A DNA stretch of 64,000 nt. It comes from a virus. How positions within the stretch are numbered: position 1 is the first letter of the stretch; each line of letters begins with the position of its first letter. The notes beneath the pieces are model-generated. The model made no database searches. It was not told the DNA's origin and saw only the letters and a list, made by a program, of their open reading frames with translations. A program made the translations under genes and the position numbers. Positions 6,079 through 49,930 of the stretch are shown piece by piece. The stretch lies in IMG/VR virus record IMGVR_UViG_3300035670_000158, positions 1 through 64,000 of that record; one strand, written 5' to 3'.

Positions 6079-6102
6079 ATAAAAAGAGGTCTCTTTTTAT
6101 TT
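6074..6102 (+). promoter_or_regulatory. late promoter overlapping a 12-bp hairpin at a start codon
   Basis: TATAAATA (6074-6081) overlaps the 5' arm of a perfect hairpin, AAATAAAAAGAG (6077-6088) and CTCTTTTTATTT (6091-6102). The hairpin ends one base before the ATG at 6104. RNA started at the late promoter would lack most of the 5' arm; read-through RNA would carry the whole hairpin, which can also act as a terminator. Confidence 0.6.
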
Positions 6103-6103
6103 G

Positions 6104-8398
6104 ATGAAGAACGGTAAGTGTCCTGCTGGAAAATACTATTGCTACACAGATGAAGTGTGCAAAGATATCCCCAAAGGATTCATGGTAGATCCAGAGGGAA
6201 TGCTTCGCAAAGAAAATGGTGCTTCAGTTTCTGAAGATATGTCTGGAGTTAAATATTCAAAATTTACTCATAAAACTCCACACCTAAAAGGTAAGCAGCA
6301 TCAGCTAGATCCTAATTTAGATCTAAAGCAATTAGTACATCACGCAACAGTACAGTATGTTGATCGTGATGCCGATGGAGATGTTGATATCTATGATAAA
6401 CCATCAAAGAAAACACCTGACGAAAATCCAGCAGATATTAATGTTGCGACTGCTTCCAAGAAATTGTTAGCAAAACAAAAAGGTGAACTGAAGCATACTA
6501 AAAGAGGTATGGCTTACGAAGAAAATAAATCTGGCGATAGCTCTTTACATGATTGGTTTTCTAAAAGCAAATCTTCAGATGGAAAACCTGGATGGGTTCA
6601 ACTGGGTGGTAAGTACGCTGGAAAACCCTGTGCAAAACAACCAGGTCAAACAACCAAACCAAAATGCGGTTCTAGTAAAATGAAACGTGCTTTAGATAAG
6701 GGAGAAGAAGAAGCAGCGTTTCGTCGCAAAAATCGTCAAGATCCAAATCCAAATAGAAGTGGAAAGGCAATCAACGTGAAGACAGAAGCAAAAGACCACG
6801 AGTACTCAATGGCTAGATCAGAAATTTCAACAATAATGAATGCCGCAAAAAGATTGCAGAAAAAAATGGCAAAGGGTGAAGGAGAAGTTGAGGCGTGGGT
6901 TCAATCCAAAATTACAAAAGCAGCTGATTATCTAGATTCTGCTGCTGATTATGTAGATAGTGGAGAGATGAATAAAGAAGAATTTGTTCAAGAAGGTGGA
7001 CTTGCAAGAGCAATGAGCAAGTCCAAGACTCAAACTACAGGTCATATTTCTGCAGATCGTGGATCTGATGAAAAAACAAATCGCACTAAAAGAAAAGGTT
7101 TGGAAAAGGACCTTAAGAAGCATGGTATTGGATATAAAAAGGGTGTAGGTGAATATAAGTATGGTAGTGGAGAAACAGGAAGAGAAGTTTCATATCACAC
7201 CAGTCCTGGAAAAGGAATGTCAAAAAGACGTTTTGGAAAAGTAATGCGTCGTCTTGGCAGAAAGCATGATCAAGAATCTGTAATTACAAAGGATAAAGAT
7301 AAACCAGCAAAGTTACATTATACTGAAAAAGGAAGCAAAGCAAAGTCAGACACAATTGGTAAGACAAAAACTGGTAAGCATCCAGAAGGATATGGTGAGA
7401 CTTCTTCAACAAAAGTAAGAAGTGGTAAACTCCCATCAAAAACTAAAAACAGAAGTTTTCACTATGAAGAAAAGGATGCATGTTATCATAAGGTCAAGTC
7501 ACGTTACAAGGTTTGGCCTTCTGCATATGCCTCTGGTGCCCTTGTAAAGTGCCGCAAAGTTGGCGCTGACAGTTGGGGCAATAAAACCAAAAAGGAAGGG
7601 TTTACGCCCTCACAAATTGCCGCTCTGGAATCAATTGGTGCTATTGAAATCAATGAGGCAGGCAAGAAGTGTTGGAAAGGTTATAAAAAAGTAGGCACGC
7701 AGAAACTCTTCGGTAAGACCTACAACCGTTGCGAAAAGGAGGGTTATTCCCATGAAGATAGCAGTGGACAAACAGATTTTTCATATGTCTCTGAGGCTGT
7801 TACTCTTCCCCGCGAGAATGGTCAGGTAATGAATGTAATGCTTGTCTTTAGAGGCAAGTTTTATATGATGCAACTATTCTTCCCAACACTTCACGTTCCA
7901 ACAAAACAGGAGGTCACGGCAGCGGTTCAGAAAATATATCCAGATGCCCGCGTCTCTCAGTATCATAAATCAACAATTGATCCAACACAACCTCTATTGA
8001 GAGTTGCAGAACAAACGGAGCAAAATGATTCTGAAGAAAAGCAAGCACAACAAATTGCAAGACGCCAACTAATGCTGAACCGCCAAAAAATTCAATTGCA
8101 AGCAAAAGCAGTTCAAAAGAAAAAAGGAACTGATATGATGATGCAAACAGAAGTTGCGGCGTGGCAACGCAAAGAAGGAAAAAATCAAAGTGGTGGACTA
8201 AATGAAAAAGGTCGCAAGTCATATGAGCGTGAAAACCCCGGTTCAGATCTAAAAGCACCTTCAAAGAAAGTTGGTAACAAACGTCGTGCTTCATTCTGTG
8301 CCAGAATGAGTGGAATGAAAAAGAAACTAACTTCTGCTAAAACTGCTAACGATCCAAATAGCAGAATCAACAAATCACTCAGAGCTTGGAATTGCTGA
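6104..8398 (+). CDS. multi-domain Lys-rich protein of unknown function
   Basis: 764 residues from the ATG at 6104; an in-frame TTG just before it lies in the hairpin. Modules seen: N-terminal Cys pair (CPAGKYYCYTDEVC, ~5-18), an acidic calcium-loop-like DRDADGDVDIYD (~86-97), a Gly/Cys block (WVQLGGKYAGKPCAKQPGQ, ~165-183), a block VWPSAYASGALVKCRKVGA (~472-490), and a C-terminal RRASFCARMSGMKKKLTSA block (~725-745). From memory, the last two blocks recur in proteins of cyanophages and large algal viruses, but no activity is known to me. It is strongly basic, and its late promoter suggests a virion or late role. Confidence 0.7.
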   Translation: MKNGKCPAGKYYCYTDEVCKDIPKGFMVDPEGMLRKENGASVSEDMSGVKYSKFTHKTPHLKGKQHQLDPNLDLKQLVHHATVQYVDRDADGDVDIYDKPSKKTPDENPADINVATASKKLLAKQKGELKHTKRGMAYEENKSGDSSLHDWFSKSKSSDGKPGWVQLGGKYAGKPCAKQPGQTTKPKCGSSKMKRALDKGEEEAAFRRKNRQDPNPNRSGKAINVKTEAKDHEYSMARSEISTIMNAAKRLQKKMAKGEGEVEAWVQSKITKAADYLDSAADYVDSGEMNKEEFVQEGGLARAMSKSKTQTTGHISADRGSDEKTNRTKRKGLEKDLKKHGIGYKKGVGEYKYGSGETGREVSYHTSPGKGMSKRRFGKVMRRLGRKHDQESVITKDKDKPAKLHYTEKGSKAKSDTIGKTKTGKHPEGYGETSSTKVRSGKLPSKTKNRSFHYEEKDACYHKVKSRYKVWPSAYASGALVKCRKVGADSWGNKTKKEGFTPSQIAALESIGAIEINEAGKKCWKGYKKVGTQKLFGKTYNRCEKEGYSHEDSSGQTDFSYVSEAVTLPRENGQVMNVMLVFRGKFYMMQLFFPTLHVPTKQEVTAAVQKIYPDARVSQYHKSTIDPTQPLLRVAEQTEQNDSEEKQAQQIARRQLMLNRQKIQLQAKAVQKKKGTDMMMQTEVAAWQRKEGKNQSGGLNEKGRKSYERENPGSDLKAPSKKVGNKRRASFCARMSGMKKKLTSAKTANDPNSRINKSLRAWNC

Positions 8399-8399
8399 C

Positions 8400-8714
8400 A
8401 TGAAAAGTTTTCAACAGTTTCTCTCAGAAAGCGTAAATATCGCTGGAGACTTCAACGGAACAATGATTATAGGTGGATCAACTTCACAAGAAGAAATGGG
8501 TGAAAGTTTTGTTGCTGATGTTCTATGGAAAGGAAATTTACTCCGAATGGAAATGACCACGAAAAATGGTCTTCCCTCATCAAGAGAACTGACAGAACAA
8601 TTGCAAAATGAATACCCAGGTGCCGTAGTTCAACAAATTTATCCTCAAACAGAAAACAGTACCAATATCAAAAATGTAAAACGTTACCACCCAGCAAAAT
8701 TAGACTGGATTTAA
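8400..8714 (+). CDS. small protein with capsid-targeting-like leader
   Basis: 104 residues, one base after the previous stop. The N-terminus MKSFQQFLSE resembles the T4 capsid-targeting sequence MKTYQEFIAE, after which the prohead protease gp21 cuts (consensus L/I-x-E). The segment VADVLWKGNLLRMEM ... GLPSSRELTEQLQNEYPGA is similar in style to residues ~560-625 of the preceding protein (NVMLVFRGKFYMMQLFFP ... EVTAAVQKIYPDA), so the two may share a domain. Probably an internal head protein; this is inference from the leader. Confidence 0.65.
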   Translation: MKSFQQFLSESVNIAGDFNGTMIIGGSTSQEEMGESFVADVLWKGNLLRMEMTTKNGLPSSRELTEQLQNEYPGAVVQQIYPQTENSTNIKNVKRYHPAKLDWI

Positions 8715-17372: not shown

Positions 17373-18023
17373 ATGAAGCTCATCACAGAAGAAATCGAAT
17401 CAGTTGAGTTTCTTGTCGAGTCAAAAAACGGCAAGAAACAACTCTATATCGAAGGAATCTTCCTCCAAGGTAATATCAAAAACCGCAATGGTCGTATGTA
17501 TCCAATGGAAACGCTCAGGCGTGAAGTTGGTAGATACAATGAGAATCATGTGATGAAAGGAAGAGCTCTAGGTGAACTAGGACATCCAGAAGGTCCAACG
17601 GTAAACCTTGATAGAGTTTCTCACAAAATTATTTCACTCAGAGAAAGTGGTAACAATTTTATTGGCAAAGCGAAAATTCTCAATACTCCAATGGGAAAGA
17701 TTGCATCTTCTCTTATTGATGAAGGTGTAAAACTGGGGGTTTCTTCTAGAGGAATTGGTTCTCTCAAATTAACAAGAGAGGGAATCAATGTTGTCAGCGA
17801 TGATTTCATGTTAGCAACTGCTGCTGATATTGTTGCCGATCCTTCTGCTCCTGATGCTTTTGTTGAAGGTATTATGGAAGGAAAAGAGTGGGTATGGGAT
17901 GGAGGCGTATTGCGTGAAGCATACGCTAAAAAGACATACAAAGAGATCAATACTTTAGTTGATCAAAAGAGACTTGATGAGAATAAATTACGTCTCTTTA
18001 ATGACTTCTTACAAAATATCTAA
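17373..18023 (+). CDS. gp21: gp21 prohead core protease
   Basis: Serine protease that processes head proteins at L/I-x-E sites. 216 residues (T4: 212). The His motif GELGHPEGP (H71) and the Ser motif LGVSSRGIG (S124/S125) give the herpesvirus-protease-like catalytic set. The N-terminal MKLITEEIESVEFLVE and GNIKNRNGRMYPMETL are typical. It starts three bases after the previous stop. Its likely targets in this window include gp22, gp23, gp67 and the two proteins with MKSF...SE leaders. Confidence 0.96.
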   Translation: MKLITEEIESVEFLVESKNGKKQLYIEGIFLQGNIKNRNGRMYPMETLRREVGRYNENHVMKGRALGELGHPEGPTVNLDRVSHKIISLRESGNNFIGKAKILNTPMGKIASSLIDEGVKLGVSSRGIGSLKLTREGINVVSDDFMLATAADIVADPSAPDAFVEGIMEGKEWVWDGGVLREAYAKKTYKEINTLVDQKRLDENKLRLFNDFLQNI

Positions 18024-18072: not shown

Positions 18073-19155
18073 ATGTCGCGTGGAAATCTACAAGAAATGG
18101 AAGTAGGCACAAAGCAATCCAAAACCGCTGTTAATGCTGGTGCAAAGGCTGCCGAATCCATGCCAAAAATGGCAGACCCTGGCACTCAACTAGGCAGCGT
18201 AGAGGATTTGGGAGGTCCTACCCCAGAAAACTATCGTTCTGATGACGATAGTGCAAAACTGAAAACTCCTGGTGGGACTTTGAAGCAAGTTCGTGATGTT
18301 GTGAATAAAGGTGCCAAGAGTGCCGATGGCATGAAAGGTATGAAAGAAGAAGAAGAACTTGATGATGAAGAAGTGCTATCCGAAGTTGATGAAACTGAAG
18401 AAGATGAAGATGAAATCGTAGAAGAAGAAATTGATGTCGAAGAAGATGTCAATGCTCTTCTCGGTGGAGAAGAACTTTCAGAAGAGTTCAAGGAAAAAGC
18501 AAAAACCATTTTTGAAGCTGCCCTTAAGTCTAAGGTAGCAGAAATCAGAGAATCCCTGGAAGAGCAATATGCTATGGCTCTTGCAGAGGAAGTAGAAGAA
18601 CTCAAAGTAGAACTTCAAGAGCGTGTTGATTCTTATCTAGAGTATGTTGCAGATGAGTGGATCTCAGAGAATCAAATCGCTGTAGAAAGAGGACTTAAAG
18701 TTGAAATGACTGAATCCTTCTTAGAAGGTATGAAGTCACTTTTTGAAGAACATTATGTATCAATTCCTGAAGAGAAATATGATGTCTTGTCTGCCATGGC
18801 AGATAAGTTAGATGACATGGAGACTAAACTCAACGAGCAAATCGAAAAGAATATTTCCCTCAATCGCCGTCTCGCAGAGTCGGTTGCTGATGGAATTCTT
18901 GCTGATGTCTCTGAAGGTCTTGCTGAGACCCAGAAAGAGAAGCTCGCTTCACTTGCCGAAGGTGTTGAGTTTGATGGTGAAGAATCGTTTAGAGAAAAAC
19001 TGGTCACACTGAGAGAATCATATTTCTCTAATACCAGATCAGTGACTCAATCATCAACTGCTGATACCCTATCTGAAGGTGTAGATCATACCGAAGTTCC
19101 TACTGGTGGTATGTCATCCTACATCGAGATGCTCAGCAAGATGAATACCAAGTGA
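18073..19155 (+). CDS. gp22: gp22 prohead scaffold protein
   Basis: 360 residues; main scaffold of the prohead core, later digested by gp21. Very acidic stretch (residues ~95-135, EEEELDDEEVLSEVDETEED) followed by long helices (~140-320) as expected for a coiled scaffold. Lies between the protease and the major capsid protein as in T4 (T4 gp22: 269 residues). A GGAGAACTTCAA ribosome site precedes the start. Confidence 0.93.
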   Translation: MSRGNLQEMEVGTKQSKTAVNAGAKAAESMPKMADPGTQLGSVEDLGGPTPENYRSDDDSAKLKTPGGTLKQVRDVVNKGAKSADGMKGMKEEEELDDEEVLSEVDETEEDEDEIVEEEIDVEEDVNALLGGEELSEEFKEKAKTIFEAALKSKVAEIRESLEEQYAMALAEEVEELKVELQERVDSYLEYVADEWISENQIAVERGLKVEMTESFLEGMKSLFEEHYVSIPEEKYDVLSAMADKLDDMETKLNEQIEKNISLNRRLAESVADGILADVSEGLAETQKEKLASLAEGVEFDGEESFREKLVTLRESYFSNTRSVTQSSTADTLSEGVDHTEVPTGGMSSYIEMLSKMNTK

Positions 19156-45522: not shown

Positions 45523-46698
45523 ATGGCAACTAACGCTATTGAAACTGCAAAACAAGAAAACGGATCTAAAGTTTTCTTTGAGCATTTTATAGAAAATGGA
45601 AAAGAACCATCGGATGCAATTATGCTGAAAGTTTATGATGGATATAATTCTGAGTGGAAAGAAACTTATAGAAAACAAGCAATAGCTCTAAAGAATTTTC
45701 TTGGTTCTAAAAAAGGATATGAATATTCTAGAGATTCTGGAATTATGCCATTTTTGGAAGACATTGCCAAAAGAGACTGTGGCGTTTCTGTAAAGGATCG
45801 TTGGAATCCAATGGATATAGTGCTTATTAAAAAAAGTGAGAAAGGAACAATAGAAGGAACTATAAGAGAACTCACCAATATTGATGGAATGACAAAACAA
45901 GCAAACCTTGTTTTGTTGAATGCTTATATGAGAGAAGCATTGGAAGAAAAAATTCTTGTAGGAGTTTCTCTCAAAGCAATTGCAAAAAATAAAAAAACTG
46001 CTAGTGCTGAACTAGCAAATATGGGCGGAGATAAAAGTGCGAGAATTAATATTGATTTAGTTCCAGGATCCTTGAAATGTACGCTTACACTTGGTAAAAA
46101 ACAAAATTACTTGTTTGATACTGGAGAGTTGGGATTTGATTTGCAAACGGAATCTGGTGGAAAAATTCATGGTCAATCTAGAAACTTTCAATATTCAAAA
46201 GAGAGAAATCTTGTTCAAACAGACCTAACACCTAAGGGAAAAGATGCTGGAGCAAAACTGGGAAAAGTTTCTAGTGTTGCCATGGATAAATTTTTATCAG
46301 ATCTTGGATTTACAAGACCATCTTCTGCCGCCAAACATCCTCATATTCCTCCAGTTGGTCAGTGGAATGATGCCGATAAAGATTATTGGATAAAACTTTA
46401 TAATCGATTAAGCACTAATACTATGGTTGATTTTGGAGAAGTTGCTGTATACCAAGACAAAAGAAAAATAGCAGATGGATTTGAAGCAGTTCTAGAAAAC
46501 GCTATCATCTATGAAACTGGAAAGGTAGATAGAAGTTCTGGAGGAAGATTTTCATCAAAACTTATTGCGATGGAATGGGCAAAAATATGGACTGAACTTG
46601 CTACAAAAAAAGAAATGCAAAACTGGTGTAGAGTTTTGTATTATGGAGCTAAGAAAGAATTTGGATCAACTAACGGACCATTTTTGAAGATTTATTGA
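45523..46698 (+). CDS. unknown protein, possible restriction-like nuclease fold
   Basis: 391 residues, not firmly recognised. The segment WNPMDIVLIKKSEKG (~91-105), then LNAYMREALEEKILVGVSLK (~136-155), has the spacing (W/x)P-x-D-I-(V/W)-L ... G-(V/I)-S-L-K seen in some PD-(D/E)XK-like nucleases, where D and K would be catalytic. The middle (~160-240) is Gly/Thr-rich. Late-type promoter in the preceding terminator. Could equally be a virion-packaged protein. Confidence 0.5.
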   Translation: MATNAIETAKQENGSKVFFEHFIENGKEPSDAIMLKVYDGYNSEWKETYRKQAIALKNFLGSKKGYEYSRDSGIMPFLEDIAKRDCGVSVKDRWNPMDIVLIKKSEKGTIEGTIRELTNIDGMTKQANLVLLNAYMREALEEKILVGVSLKAIAKNKKTASAELANMGGDKSARINIDLVPGSLKCTLTLGKKQNYLFDTGELGFDLQTESGGKIHGQSRNFQYSKERNLVQTDLTPKGKDAGAKLGKVSSVAMDKFLSDLGFTRPSSAAKHPHIPPVGQWNDADKDYWIKLYNRLSTNTMVDFGEVAVYQDKRKIADGFEAVLENAIIYETGKVDRSSGGRFSSKLIAMEWAKIWTELATKKEMQNWCRVLYYGAKKEFGSTNGPFLKIY

Positions 46699-46701
46699 AT
46701 C

Positions 46702-46710
46702 AATAAATAA
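46702..46710 (+). promoter_or_regulatory. late promoter core AATAAATAA
   Basis: Three bases after the 45523 gene and 21 bases before the capsid-targeted nucleotidyltransferase. Confidence 0.6.
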
Positions 46711-46731: not shown

Positions 46732-48201
46732 ATGAAAAGTTTTTCGCAATTCATTTCGGAGGCAGTAATCTCACGCGCTGTAGAAAAAGCAAAGCGTTTG
46801 GGGTTGGTTTCGGATGGGCACGGGAACTGGTATGATCGTCAGGGACAATACAAGGGCAGAACTTATAAAGGCGATCTCCTCTTAAGTAAAGGAAGAGAGG
46901 GTAAAAAAGAAGAACCTGGTGCTCAAAAGCAATCCACTACTGCTGCTCCTTCTAAAGAAACTCAACCAACAGCACAGGCAAGACCTGAACCACGCCGCTC
47001 CTCTGGAGAAGAGGGTTCAGCACCAGAACAAACTGGTGAAAAAAGATTTTTAACGGTTGCGTTTGGTCGTTTCAACCCACCAACTGTAGGTCACGAAAAA
47101 CTTTTGGATGCTACTAAAAAACAGGCTGGTGGCGGAGCATACAAAATTTATCCATCACGTTCAGAAGATCCTAAGAAAAATCCTCTTTCTGCTGATGAAA
47201 AAATTTCATACATGAGAAAGATGTATCCAACACATGGAGAAAGGATCATCAACGATGAGGATATGAGAAGCATATTTGACGTTTTAACGAGGGCATATGA
47301 GGACGGATACACAGGTATCAACATCATGGTTGGTGCTGACCGAAAAGCAGAGTTTGAGAAACTCGCAAATAACTACAACGGCGAATTGTATGATTTTGAC
47401 GAAATTAACGTTGTGTCAGCAGGGGAGCGTGATCCCGATGCTGAAGGTGTCGAGGGCATGTCTGCCTCTAAACTTAGAAAAGCAGCTGCTGATGGAGATT
47501 TCAAGACGTTCAGATCGGGGGTCCCTAAAGCATTAGATGATGAAGACGCAAAGAAACTTTTCAATACTCTTCGTAGTAAGATGGGTATCAAGGGAAAGGT
47601 CACCGCAGAATCAATTAATCTTTGGGAGATTGCTCCAAAACTTGATTGGAAAGGTCTAAGAGAAAATTATGTCAACGAATTAATTTTTAGAGTAGGTGAC
47701 ATTGTAGAAAATCTCAATACTGGATTGATTGGTAAAATTATTCGTAGAGGAACTAATCATTTGATTTGTGTCACTGAGGATAATATGATGTTCAAGTCCT
47801 GGATTCGTGATTTGCGTGAAACAAGAGAGATTGAAAATCCATCGGGTAATCTTAGACAACTTGCTAAAAAAGCAGTCAATAGAAAAGATAACAATATTGA
47901 TGGATTTGTAGATAAGCAAGATCCAAACGTTGGACCATATGGTGCTTTTATTCCTCAAGCAAAAAATTTACCTAAAAATTTCAAAGAGGCATATCAAGAG
48001 AAGAGAGTTGAAGGAAAGACTAGAGTTCCTGGCAAACCAAATACTCTTGCCGGCACTGGGGGATACTTCAAGTATGCTTCTGATATGACACCTGGATTTG
48101 AAAAGGGAGATAAGATGAATTTGCAACCAGGTGGTAAAGCATATAGCGGATATAATCAGACAGGTATCAAAGAATTTATAAATAAGTATAAAAAGTCTTA
48201 G
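46732..48201 (+). CDS. capsid-targeted nucleotidyltransferase-like protein
   Basis: 489 residues. Leader [11 protein letters not shown] resembles the T4 capsid-targeting sequence and ends in an I-S-E site for gp21. Next a module [20 protein letters not shown] (~21-40), then a disordered charged linker (~55-103). A cytidylyltransferase/NMN-adenylyltransferase-like domain follows: [17 protein letters not shown] (~109-125; TxGH replaces HxGH) and the second motif [10 protein letters not shown] (~243-252). After that comes an SH3-like stretch ([20 protein letters not shown], ~321-340) and a Gly-rich tail. Expected to be packaged in the head and possibly injected. Substrate unknown. Confidence 0.78.
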
Positions 48202-48205
48202 TGTA

Positions 48206-49930
48206 ATGGATCTCTACAATAACAAAAAGGCTCTTAGTGAGCTAACGAGTCTTTATATGCAAATGAATGAGTCTTCTTATTTGGAGACTGATATGGAGAA
48301 GCGTCGTAAGAATAATGAAAAAGCAGTTGAAGATATGAAGAAGACTAAGGCTCATAAGGATATGGCAGCTGCCGCCAGAAAGAAACTTGTTGGTGAAGGT
48401 GAAGACAGTGAGTATCGTAGAATGCTTGCAAAGGAACGTCAATCAGAGCGCGAGCGTGAAGCAAAGCGTCCTGGTGTAAAGAGCATCACTCCTGGAAAGA
48501 AAGCAGCAAGTGCTGGTAAAGACTATGCTGATTATCAATCAAAGAGTATTGAAGCTCATGATAAAGCAACTAAAAAAGCAAAGATCACTGTCGGAAATCC
48601 TTTCCCAGAAGAAGTTCAATACACTGAAGCAATTGATCCAAAGGGCGCAGCGAGACAAGATGCTGCAAAGGAAAAAAAGAAAATTGATGTATTTGCATAT
48701 GATAGAAAGATTGGTAGAAAAGATATTCCACCAGCTCCCAAAAATGAAGCACTTGATCCAGTAGGAAGAGAAGACTCTGACATTGATAATGATGGTGATA
48801 CTGATAAGTCAGATAAGTATCTTCATAAGAGAAGAAAAGCAATTGGTAAAGCGATTGCTAAGAAGAAAGGAATGAAAGAAAGTTTATCTAACTGGAGACA
48901 AGATCTTTCTGAGATTCTTGATACTGAAGATGATAAGCAAATCAAAGAAAAAAAGGTAAAGAATAAAGTTGTCATTGATCCAGATTTAAAATTAGAAGAT
49001 ATTGCTTATGAATTAGGTGCTGAGATTATAGAAGTGATTGAACTTGGCGAAGTATCCTATATGGATTATGCTAAGAGCAAACAGGCAGAGAAAAAAGATA
49101 CTCGCATGACTGTTACTGCTGCCGACAAAAAAGCAAATACTCTTGCATACCAAAAGTACAAAGCAGGTGATAAGAGATACAAAGCTGCTTCGCACCTTGG
49201 AGAAGACAATATTGAAGAAAAGGCATTGAGCAAATCACAGCAACGCTTCATGGGTATGGTTTATGCGGCAAAGAAGGGCGAAACCCCTGCCTCTCCTGAG
49301 GTCGCTAAAGCAGCTTCTGGTATGAGCAAGAAAGCAGCAAAGGATTTTGCTGGAACCAAACATAAAGGTCTTCCTGAAAAGAAAGTTGCTAAGGAAGAGA
49401 TTGAAATTGATGAAGCGAAGCAATCTTTCCCCTTCAAGAAAGTTGAAAAACAAATGGCGAAGGCAAGGGCAGGTTCTGTCTATGCTAAAAAAGGAAATCC
49501 TGCAGTTCCTAATACGACTGATGCTGAAAAGAAAAACACAACTCGTTTCAGCAAGATGCACCGTGCGTCTGAAAAAGCAAAGAGAGAAAAGCAAGAGGCA
49601 GATAAAGCAAGACGTTCACCAACTTTCTACAAGGACACTCATCCCGCAAGTGCTCCTAAGATGAAGAAAGCAAATGAGGAGGTTGAAATTCTTGACGAAA
49701 GAAGAAAAGAAGACAAAGTTGCAGGAACTCCAAGAAAACCCCGCAATAAAGCATTTGAGTTAGTTGCTAAATCAATGGGCACTAGTAGAATGGGAGTTCA
49801 ACCAAGAGGGAAAAAGAAAGTACCTGGTGAGAAGAAACCAAATACCCAAGTGACTCCTGCTCAAAAAGTAGCAAAACGTCGTGCTGATGCTCAAAGAGCA
49901 CAAGATATGATGCATTCAAGATTTGACTAA
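48206..49930 (+). CDS. long charged Lys/Glu-rich protein, probable internal head protein
   Basis: 574 residues, very Lys/Ala/Glu-rich with few aromatics. Contains a calcium-loop-like [17 protein letters not shown] (~192-208), and a DUF3008-like block [20 protein letters not shown] ... [15 protein letters not shown] (~346-395), seen in small bacterial and phage proteins. Candidate gp21 sites (L-S-E) occur at ALSE (~11-14) and DLSE (~232-235). Follows the capsid-targeted protein by four bases and is probably coexpressed. Internal head role is inference. Confidence 0.55.

Follow-up and report, generated by a model that had tools for sequence, protein, structure and literature searches.

A nucleotidyltransferase with a T4-like capsid-targeting leader as a likely injected head protein of a marine phage

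The gene at positions 46732-48201 (+ strand) encodes what is, in our assessment, likely to be an internal head protein of a T4-like marine (Kyanoviridae-type) phage: a nucleotidyltransferase (NTase) that is packaged by means of its leader, trimmed, and injected. Its first ten residues match the tag that loads internal proteins into the T4 head, so the enzyme probably enters the head along with the DNA, loses its leader, and reaches the host as infection begins. Packaging via the leader is the firmest part of this reading and appears very probable; by analogy with T4, cleavage of the leader by gp21 is quite probable and injection into the host is likely. Cyanophage virions repeatedly yield such NTases, kinases and SAM lyases, and the authors of those studies could not say which of them were cargo and which were contaminants. 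With a readable leader, the question becomes a testable rule, by which injected cargo would be predictable from sequence for a phage group widespread in the sea. If the NTase does make NAD, its delivery by the virion would counter defences that deplete NAD or give metabolism an immediate boost.

The window analyzed here is a 64-kb portion of a 71-kb virus record, and it contains T4-type genes for gp21, gp22, gp23, the portal, the tail and replication (several of these names were assigned by reading the sequences). The NTase ORF starts with ATG and encodes 489 residues, and the elements on which the earlier note relied are all present: the N-terminal 11 residues (1-11), the motif at residues 112-121, and SASKLRKAA at residues 244-252. 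On the plus strand, a ten-residue leader resembling a capsid-targeting sequence (46732-46761), with a predicted gp21 cut between E10 and A11 (46761/46762), is followed by a small domain of helix and beta strands that we call the DGHG module (residues 15-56, 46774-46899), a low-complexity, poorly conserved linker (residues 57-103, 46900-47040), an NTase domain of PPAT/NMNAT fold with Pfam, Foldseek and VIA matches (residues 104-287, 47041-47592), and an SH3-like beta domain (residues 306-362, 47647-47817). The SH3-like domain shows beta strands in the AF2 model and is also kept in S-CREM2_154 and S-SZBM1_140. The AF2 model of the whole protein (overall pLDDT 63.8, pTM 0.41) is reliable only at residues ∼21-50 and 104-287; pLDDT falls to ∼30 in the linker, where the column entropy among 33 family representatives is highest. 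The C-terminal tail IKEFINKYK (48163-48189) is conserved in the family as IKxFINKYK, with F482, N484 and K485 invariant, and lies beyond a variable stretch.

To describe the leader quantitatively, we used a strict pattern, M[KRQN]x[FYL]xx[FY][ILMVF]xE. Amino acid composition predicts 0.005 occurrences at the ∼75 gene starts of the window, but two real ORFs carry it (46732-48201 and 8400-8714), so the NTase leader is not a chance match. The leader is kept in 68 of the 68 distinct NTase homologs found. Among 33 representatives at <90% identity, M1, F4 and F7 are invariant, residue 8 is I, L or F, E10 occurs in 31 and A11 in 30, while positions 5, 6 and 9 are variable and conservation is lowest of all in the linker. 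In T4 IPIII, targeting is set by residues 4 and 7 and processing by residues 8 and 10 (PMC9026906); the NTase has an N-terminal leader of about ten residues with determinants at these same four positions. Reading T4 ipII and ipIII directly, we verified the leader MKTYQEFIAE quoted in the earlier note: both proteins open with MKTYQEFIAEA, the A following the leader as it does in the NTase. Alt, which that note had offered as an example of this leader, proved to be a poor one, lacking the ten-residue leader and having an N-terminal propeptide of 7 residues (PMC9026906). The strict pattern matched ipII and ipIII and nothing else in 40 kb of T4, and only one non-family ORF in six frames of 737 kb of related phage DNA. 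The likeness to IPII and IPIII thus extends over the ten-residue length, aromatic residues at 4 and 7, I/L at 8, E10 and A11, as well as the presence of gp21 and gp22 in the same genome; the difference lies in the cargo, which here is a 479-residue enzyme with a DGHG module, whereas the T4 internal proteins are small.

The genome encodes both the protease and an [LI]xE-bearing scaffold. The gp21 gene (17373-18023, +) matches phrog_207, head maturation protease, at 1.6e-83, and its product has 8 [LI]xE sites (3.6 expected from shuffling). The gp22 scaffold (18073-19155, +) has 18 such sites against 7.7 in shuffled sequences, and the product of 48206-49930 has 10 against 4.1. The tail sheath is mildly over expectation (7 versus 4.1), and most other proteins checked, including replication proteins and the portal, are near the expected count. 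This enrichment fits cutting by gp21 at [LI]xE, as in T4, and the 48206-49930 product is possibly a prohead-core protein that gp21 would also cut. We dropped the possibility that the NTase itself is split at internal [LI]xE sites, of which it has six where 4.2 are expected. In the literature searched, we found no report of a mature N-terminal peptide for any NTase homolog.

The enzyme class is clear from motifs and fold. The (T/H)xGH nucleotide-binding motif (residues 112-121, 47065-47094) and SASKLRKAA, an SxTxxR-type motif (residues 244-252, 47461-47487), are near-invariant in the family and lie in a Rossmann-like fold, as in the HxGH nucleotidyltransferase superfamily (CTP_transf_like). Pfam CTP_transf_like matches residues 110-249 at 1.4e-4, and the domain has a Foldseek match at 6.7e-6. 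By VIA comparison the modelled fold is of the PPAT/NMNAT type, not specifically that of a cytidylyltransferase: glycerol-3-phosphate cytidylyltransferase is absent from the fold matches listed, and the cytidylyltransferase label comes from annotation only. We weakly favor NMNAT-like chemistry, as a tentative choice. The homologs' NCBIfam matches include NadD, NadR and NadM types, all under cut-off, and no HMM match to a particular enzyme family, NMNAT included, reaches its cut-off. Single-protein and profile searches of solved structures gave nothing significant, only sub-threshold matches, some of them NMNAT-type. Among the weak PDB profile matches within the superfamily, the best-scoring is MJ0951, which also has the HxGH element, and three are NMNATs, including the bifunctional NMNAT/Nudix enzyme 2qjo, whose alignment, itself a weak match, lines up GRFxPxHxGH and an NP element with the NTase family. 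Thus the nucleotidyltransferase call of the earlier note stands at the level of class (an HxGH adenylyl/cytidylyltransferase fold), while NMN, CTP and macromolecule substrates are not separable by the motifs, the fold or the weak, NMNAT-leaning profiles.

Two other substrate assignments bear comparison with the NMNAT-like one. The enzyme could be PPAT-like and act in the CoA pathway, as the top structural matches (PPAT, Z 14.3) and the PPAT-type TxGH in place of HxGH would suggest; however, NMNAT/NadM follows at Z 13.3, a gap of 1 that amounts to a tie, relatives have H at the T position of TxGH, and the sub-threshold PDB and NCBIfam sequence matches include NMNAT types and no PPAT, so that we regard a PPAT-like enzyme as unlikely. 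Still less likely is that the injected NTase modifies a macromolecule (an RNA 5' end, a tRNA or a protein) instead of synthesizing an NAD or CoA precursor. This alternative draws on DUF6267, whose KWDGAP motif resembles, by eye, that of nucleotidyltransferase ligases: in some phages the NTase is preceded by DUF6267 (L087:31477-32670, L101:464-1657, L069:1049-2251), and in phrog_455 the two are fused. Against it, the NTase gene in this window has no adjoining DUF6267, and the fold matches are small-molecule adenylyltransferases.

An NTase whose enzyme domain is incidental, and which is packaged for a structural or scaffold role in the head or its assembly, would agree with the good conservation of the DGHG module and SH3-like domain alongside the enzyme, and T4 IPIII likewise aids head assembly (PMC9026906); but conservation is strongest in the columns of the catalytic motifs, with a mean entropy of 0.13 at residues 111-120, and this role seems improbable to us.

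The DGHG module is found beyond the NTase family. Its HMM matches the S-CREM2 kinase ORF14 (E = 3e-12) and ORF12 (E = 3e-10), both detected by mass spectrometry (MS) in virions, and further carriers are S-CRM01 128 and kinase 130, the MA10 kinase, an MA10 protein of 973 aa, and ACG-2014f_182. In these carriers outside the NTase family, an F..F[ILM].E-type leader is also found close to the N-terminus; that of the MA10 kinase is degenerate, and in ORF12, S-CRM01 128, ACG-2014f_182 and the MA10 973-aa protein the leader comes after a short extension. Module matches beyond cyanophage-type records are at chance level, and a search of viral contigs for relatives of the S-CREM2 kinase found none. ORF12 (L082:7704-10313) is annotated as a CRISPR-Cas9 nuclease, a name that no Pfam or NCBIfam match backs. 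Modelled alone, the module reaches an AF2 pLDDT of 82; its best fold match has Z 3.0 (2od0_B, rmsd 3.1, 46 aligned) and Foldseek returned nothing below E = 2, which is not evidence of a new fold.

The leader also occurs on cargos of other kinds. SAM lyases (PF23780) have it in 57 of 80 loci (L104-L183, some redundant), for example as MKTFQEFMVE and MKSFKEFIQE, which suggests from sequence that these homologs may be injected anti-restriction cargo. In the window itself, the second leader-bearing ORF (8400-8714, +; 104 aa, phrog_1742) begins with MKSFQQFLSE followed by S; its homologs in S-SZBM1 and S-SCSM1 keep the leader and were MS-detected in neither. The ORF at 6101-8398, in the structural region, encodes a 765-aa protein with an S-adenosylmethionine lyase domain (PF23780, residues 316-425) and DUF6321. 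Neither leader nor module is present in distant NTase relatives from Cr30 and from the jumbo phages PA5oct and slurp01, and the leader sits on unrelated cargos; it therefore behaves as an exchangeable tag. We can envisage, with slightly less than even confidence, a two-part cargo code in marine T4-like phages: an IPIII-type leader, behind which many cargos have the ∼40-residue DGHG module, would bring into the head a set of unrelated host-takeover enzymes (adenylyltransferase, protein kinase, large proteins, and SAM lyase, which has only the leader), as a metabolic and counter-defence kit present at time zero and possibly including NAD replenishment.

The sequence upstream of the gene suggests late expression. 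A late-promoter motif, AATAAATA, lies at 46702-46709 (+), 30 bp 5' of the NTase start codon. The motif NATAAATA is the late promoter of S-PM2 (PMC2984593), and the window has 24 copies on the plus strand, many of them 5' of virion genes, and 1 on the minus strand. We scanned for N[AC]TAAATA, allowing C at the second position: in the 60 bp before the gene, 7 of the 15 virion genes have it, none of the 16 replication/metabolism genes does, and 4 of the 5 genes of the NTase locus do. The motif at the NTase gene, as a sequence feature, is conserved across the family: 25 of 27 loci have it in the 45 bp before the gene, compared with 1.8% of random windows. This distribution suggests that the NTase gene is wired late within a replication region. 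The upstream gene (phrog_1462, 45523-46698, +) has the motif at -29, and the next gene (48206-49930, +), which encodes a Lys/Glu-rich, [LI]xE-rich protein containing DUF3008, has a late-promoter motif of its own. In the NTase region of S-SCSM1, the virion-protein label is given to genes 89 to 93, 95 and 97, and the products encoded at 48206 and 50200 of the window match S-SCSM1 92/93 and 95; the NTase locus therefore looks like a block of virion genes.

Published MS of purified virions has identified homologs of the NTase in at least four cyanophages: S-SM1 T4-GC190 (PMC3037559), S-SCSM1 ORF91 (PMC9602691), S-SZBM1_140 (PMC9146016) and S-CREM2 ORF154 (PMC10665884). These proteins, called cytidylyltransferase or NMNAT and assigned to phrog_395, belong to the same family and the same gene neighborhood as ours, which is 57% identical to S-SCSM1_91 over residues 1-363. 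In S-CREM2, five of six strict-leader ORFs were MS-detected (SAM lyase ORF6, ORF13, kinase ORF14, ORF136 and cytidylyltransferase ORF154; ORF175 was missed), compared with 52 of 219 ORFs overall (p = 0.003), and 6 of 10 were detected in S-CREM2, S-SZBM1 and S-SCSM1 combined (p = 0.007), p-values that serve as guides only, since the pattern was fixed after several leaders had been seen. The combined value is slightly conservative, because it was computed with 52 S-SCSM1 virion proteins, compared with 45 in the paper. S-SZBM1 contributed 0 of 2 (ORFs 191 and 192 absent from MS) and S-SCSM1 1 of 2 (ORF30 absent); the nine-residue leader of the S-SZBM1 NTase is missed by the strict pattern. Some of the virion MS authors left open whether such proteins are cargo or contaminants, noting that an abundant cell protein could contaminate CsCl-purified virions, and the NTase gene does sit amid replication genes; but an ordinary auxiliary metabolic enzyme of infection that sticks to virions, its N-terminal helix having some other role, is quite improbable given repeated detection in four independent proteomes, a leader conserved at its four functional positions and shared with unrelated cargos and the T4 internal proteins, and a late promoter that the neighboring replication genes lack. 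The packing of the NTase in the head, proposed in the earlier note, is thus well supported by the conserved leader, the presence in the genome of gp21 and gp22 with [LI]xE sites, the late promoter, and the MS of homologs.

We propose the following sequence of events. The NTase would be made late, from its own late promoter, as the upstream sequence supports; the ten-residue leader, judging from its sequence and the published MS of homologs, would direct it into the prohead core; gp21 would then cut past E10, leaving a 479-residue enzyme free in the head; and the enzyme would be ejected with the DNA, as we infer from the T4 internal proteins. In the host, it would transfer a nucleotidyl group to a small phosphorylated metabolite, a class of reaction read from motifs and fold, with an NMN-type substrate leading to NAD as the weakly favored case. 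Delivered in this way, NTase activity would be present ahead of any phage gene expression.

Known systems offer partial precedents. The small T4 internal proteins inhibit type IV restriction enzymes (PMC12373910). T4 Alt resembles the NTase in being an enzyme packaged in the head and delivered at the onset of infection, but it is an ADP-ribosyltransferase, of an unrelated class, and its processing combines removal of the short N-terminal propeptide with a C-terminal cut (PMC9026906). NARP1 (Adps, Namat) may share the outcome, NAD restored during infection, but it uses other enzymes and steps and makes NAD without an NMNAT step (PMC12774641); the literature searched gave no virion location for its enzymes. 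The virion location of the NTase family is already known. What is new is the leader as the explanation for packaging, its generality across cargos, the DGHG module, and the late-promoter wiring; all four are undescribed for cyanophages in the full texts searched, an absence that is no proof for the wider literature.

Two further observations concern leader-like sequences elsewhere. A scan for C-terminal copies showed that S-SCSM1_93 ends in RTFKEFLEYIE and S-CREM2 ORF12 in KTFRDFLN, but it gave too many chance matches besides for us to draw any conclusion. Near the NTase gene of another phage contig, a 117-aa ORF (L056:6935-7288) opens with the leader MKKFNDFLSE.
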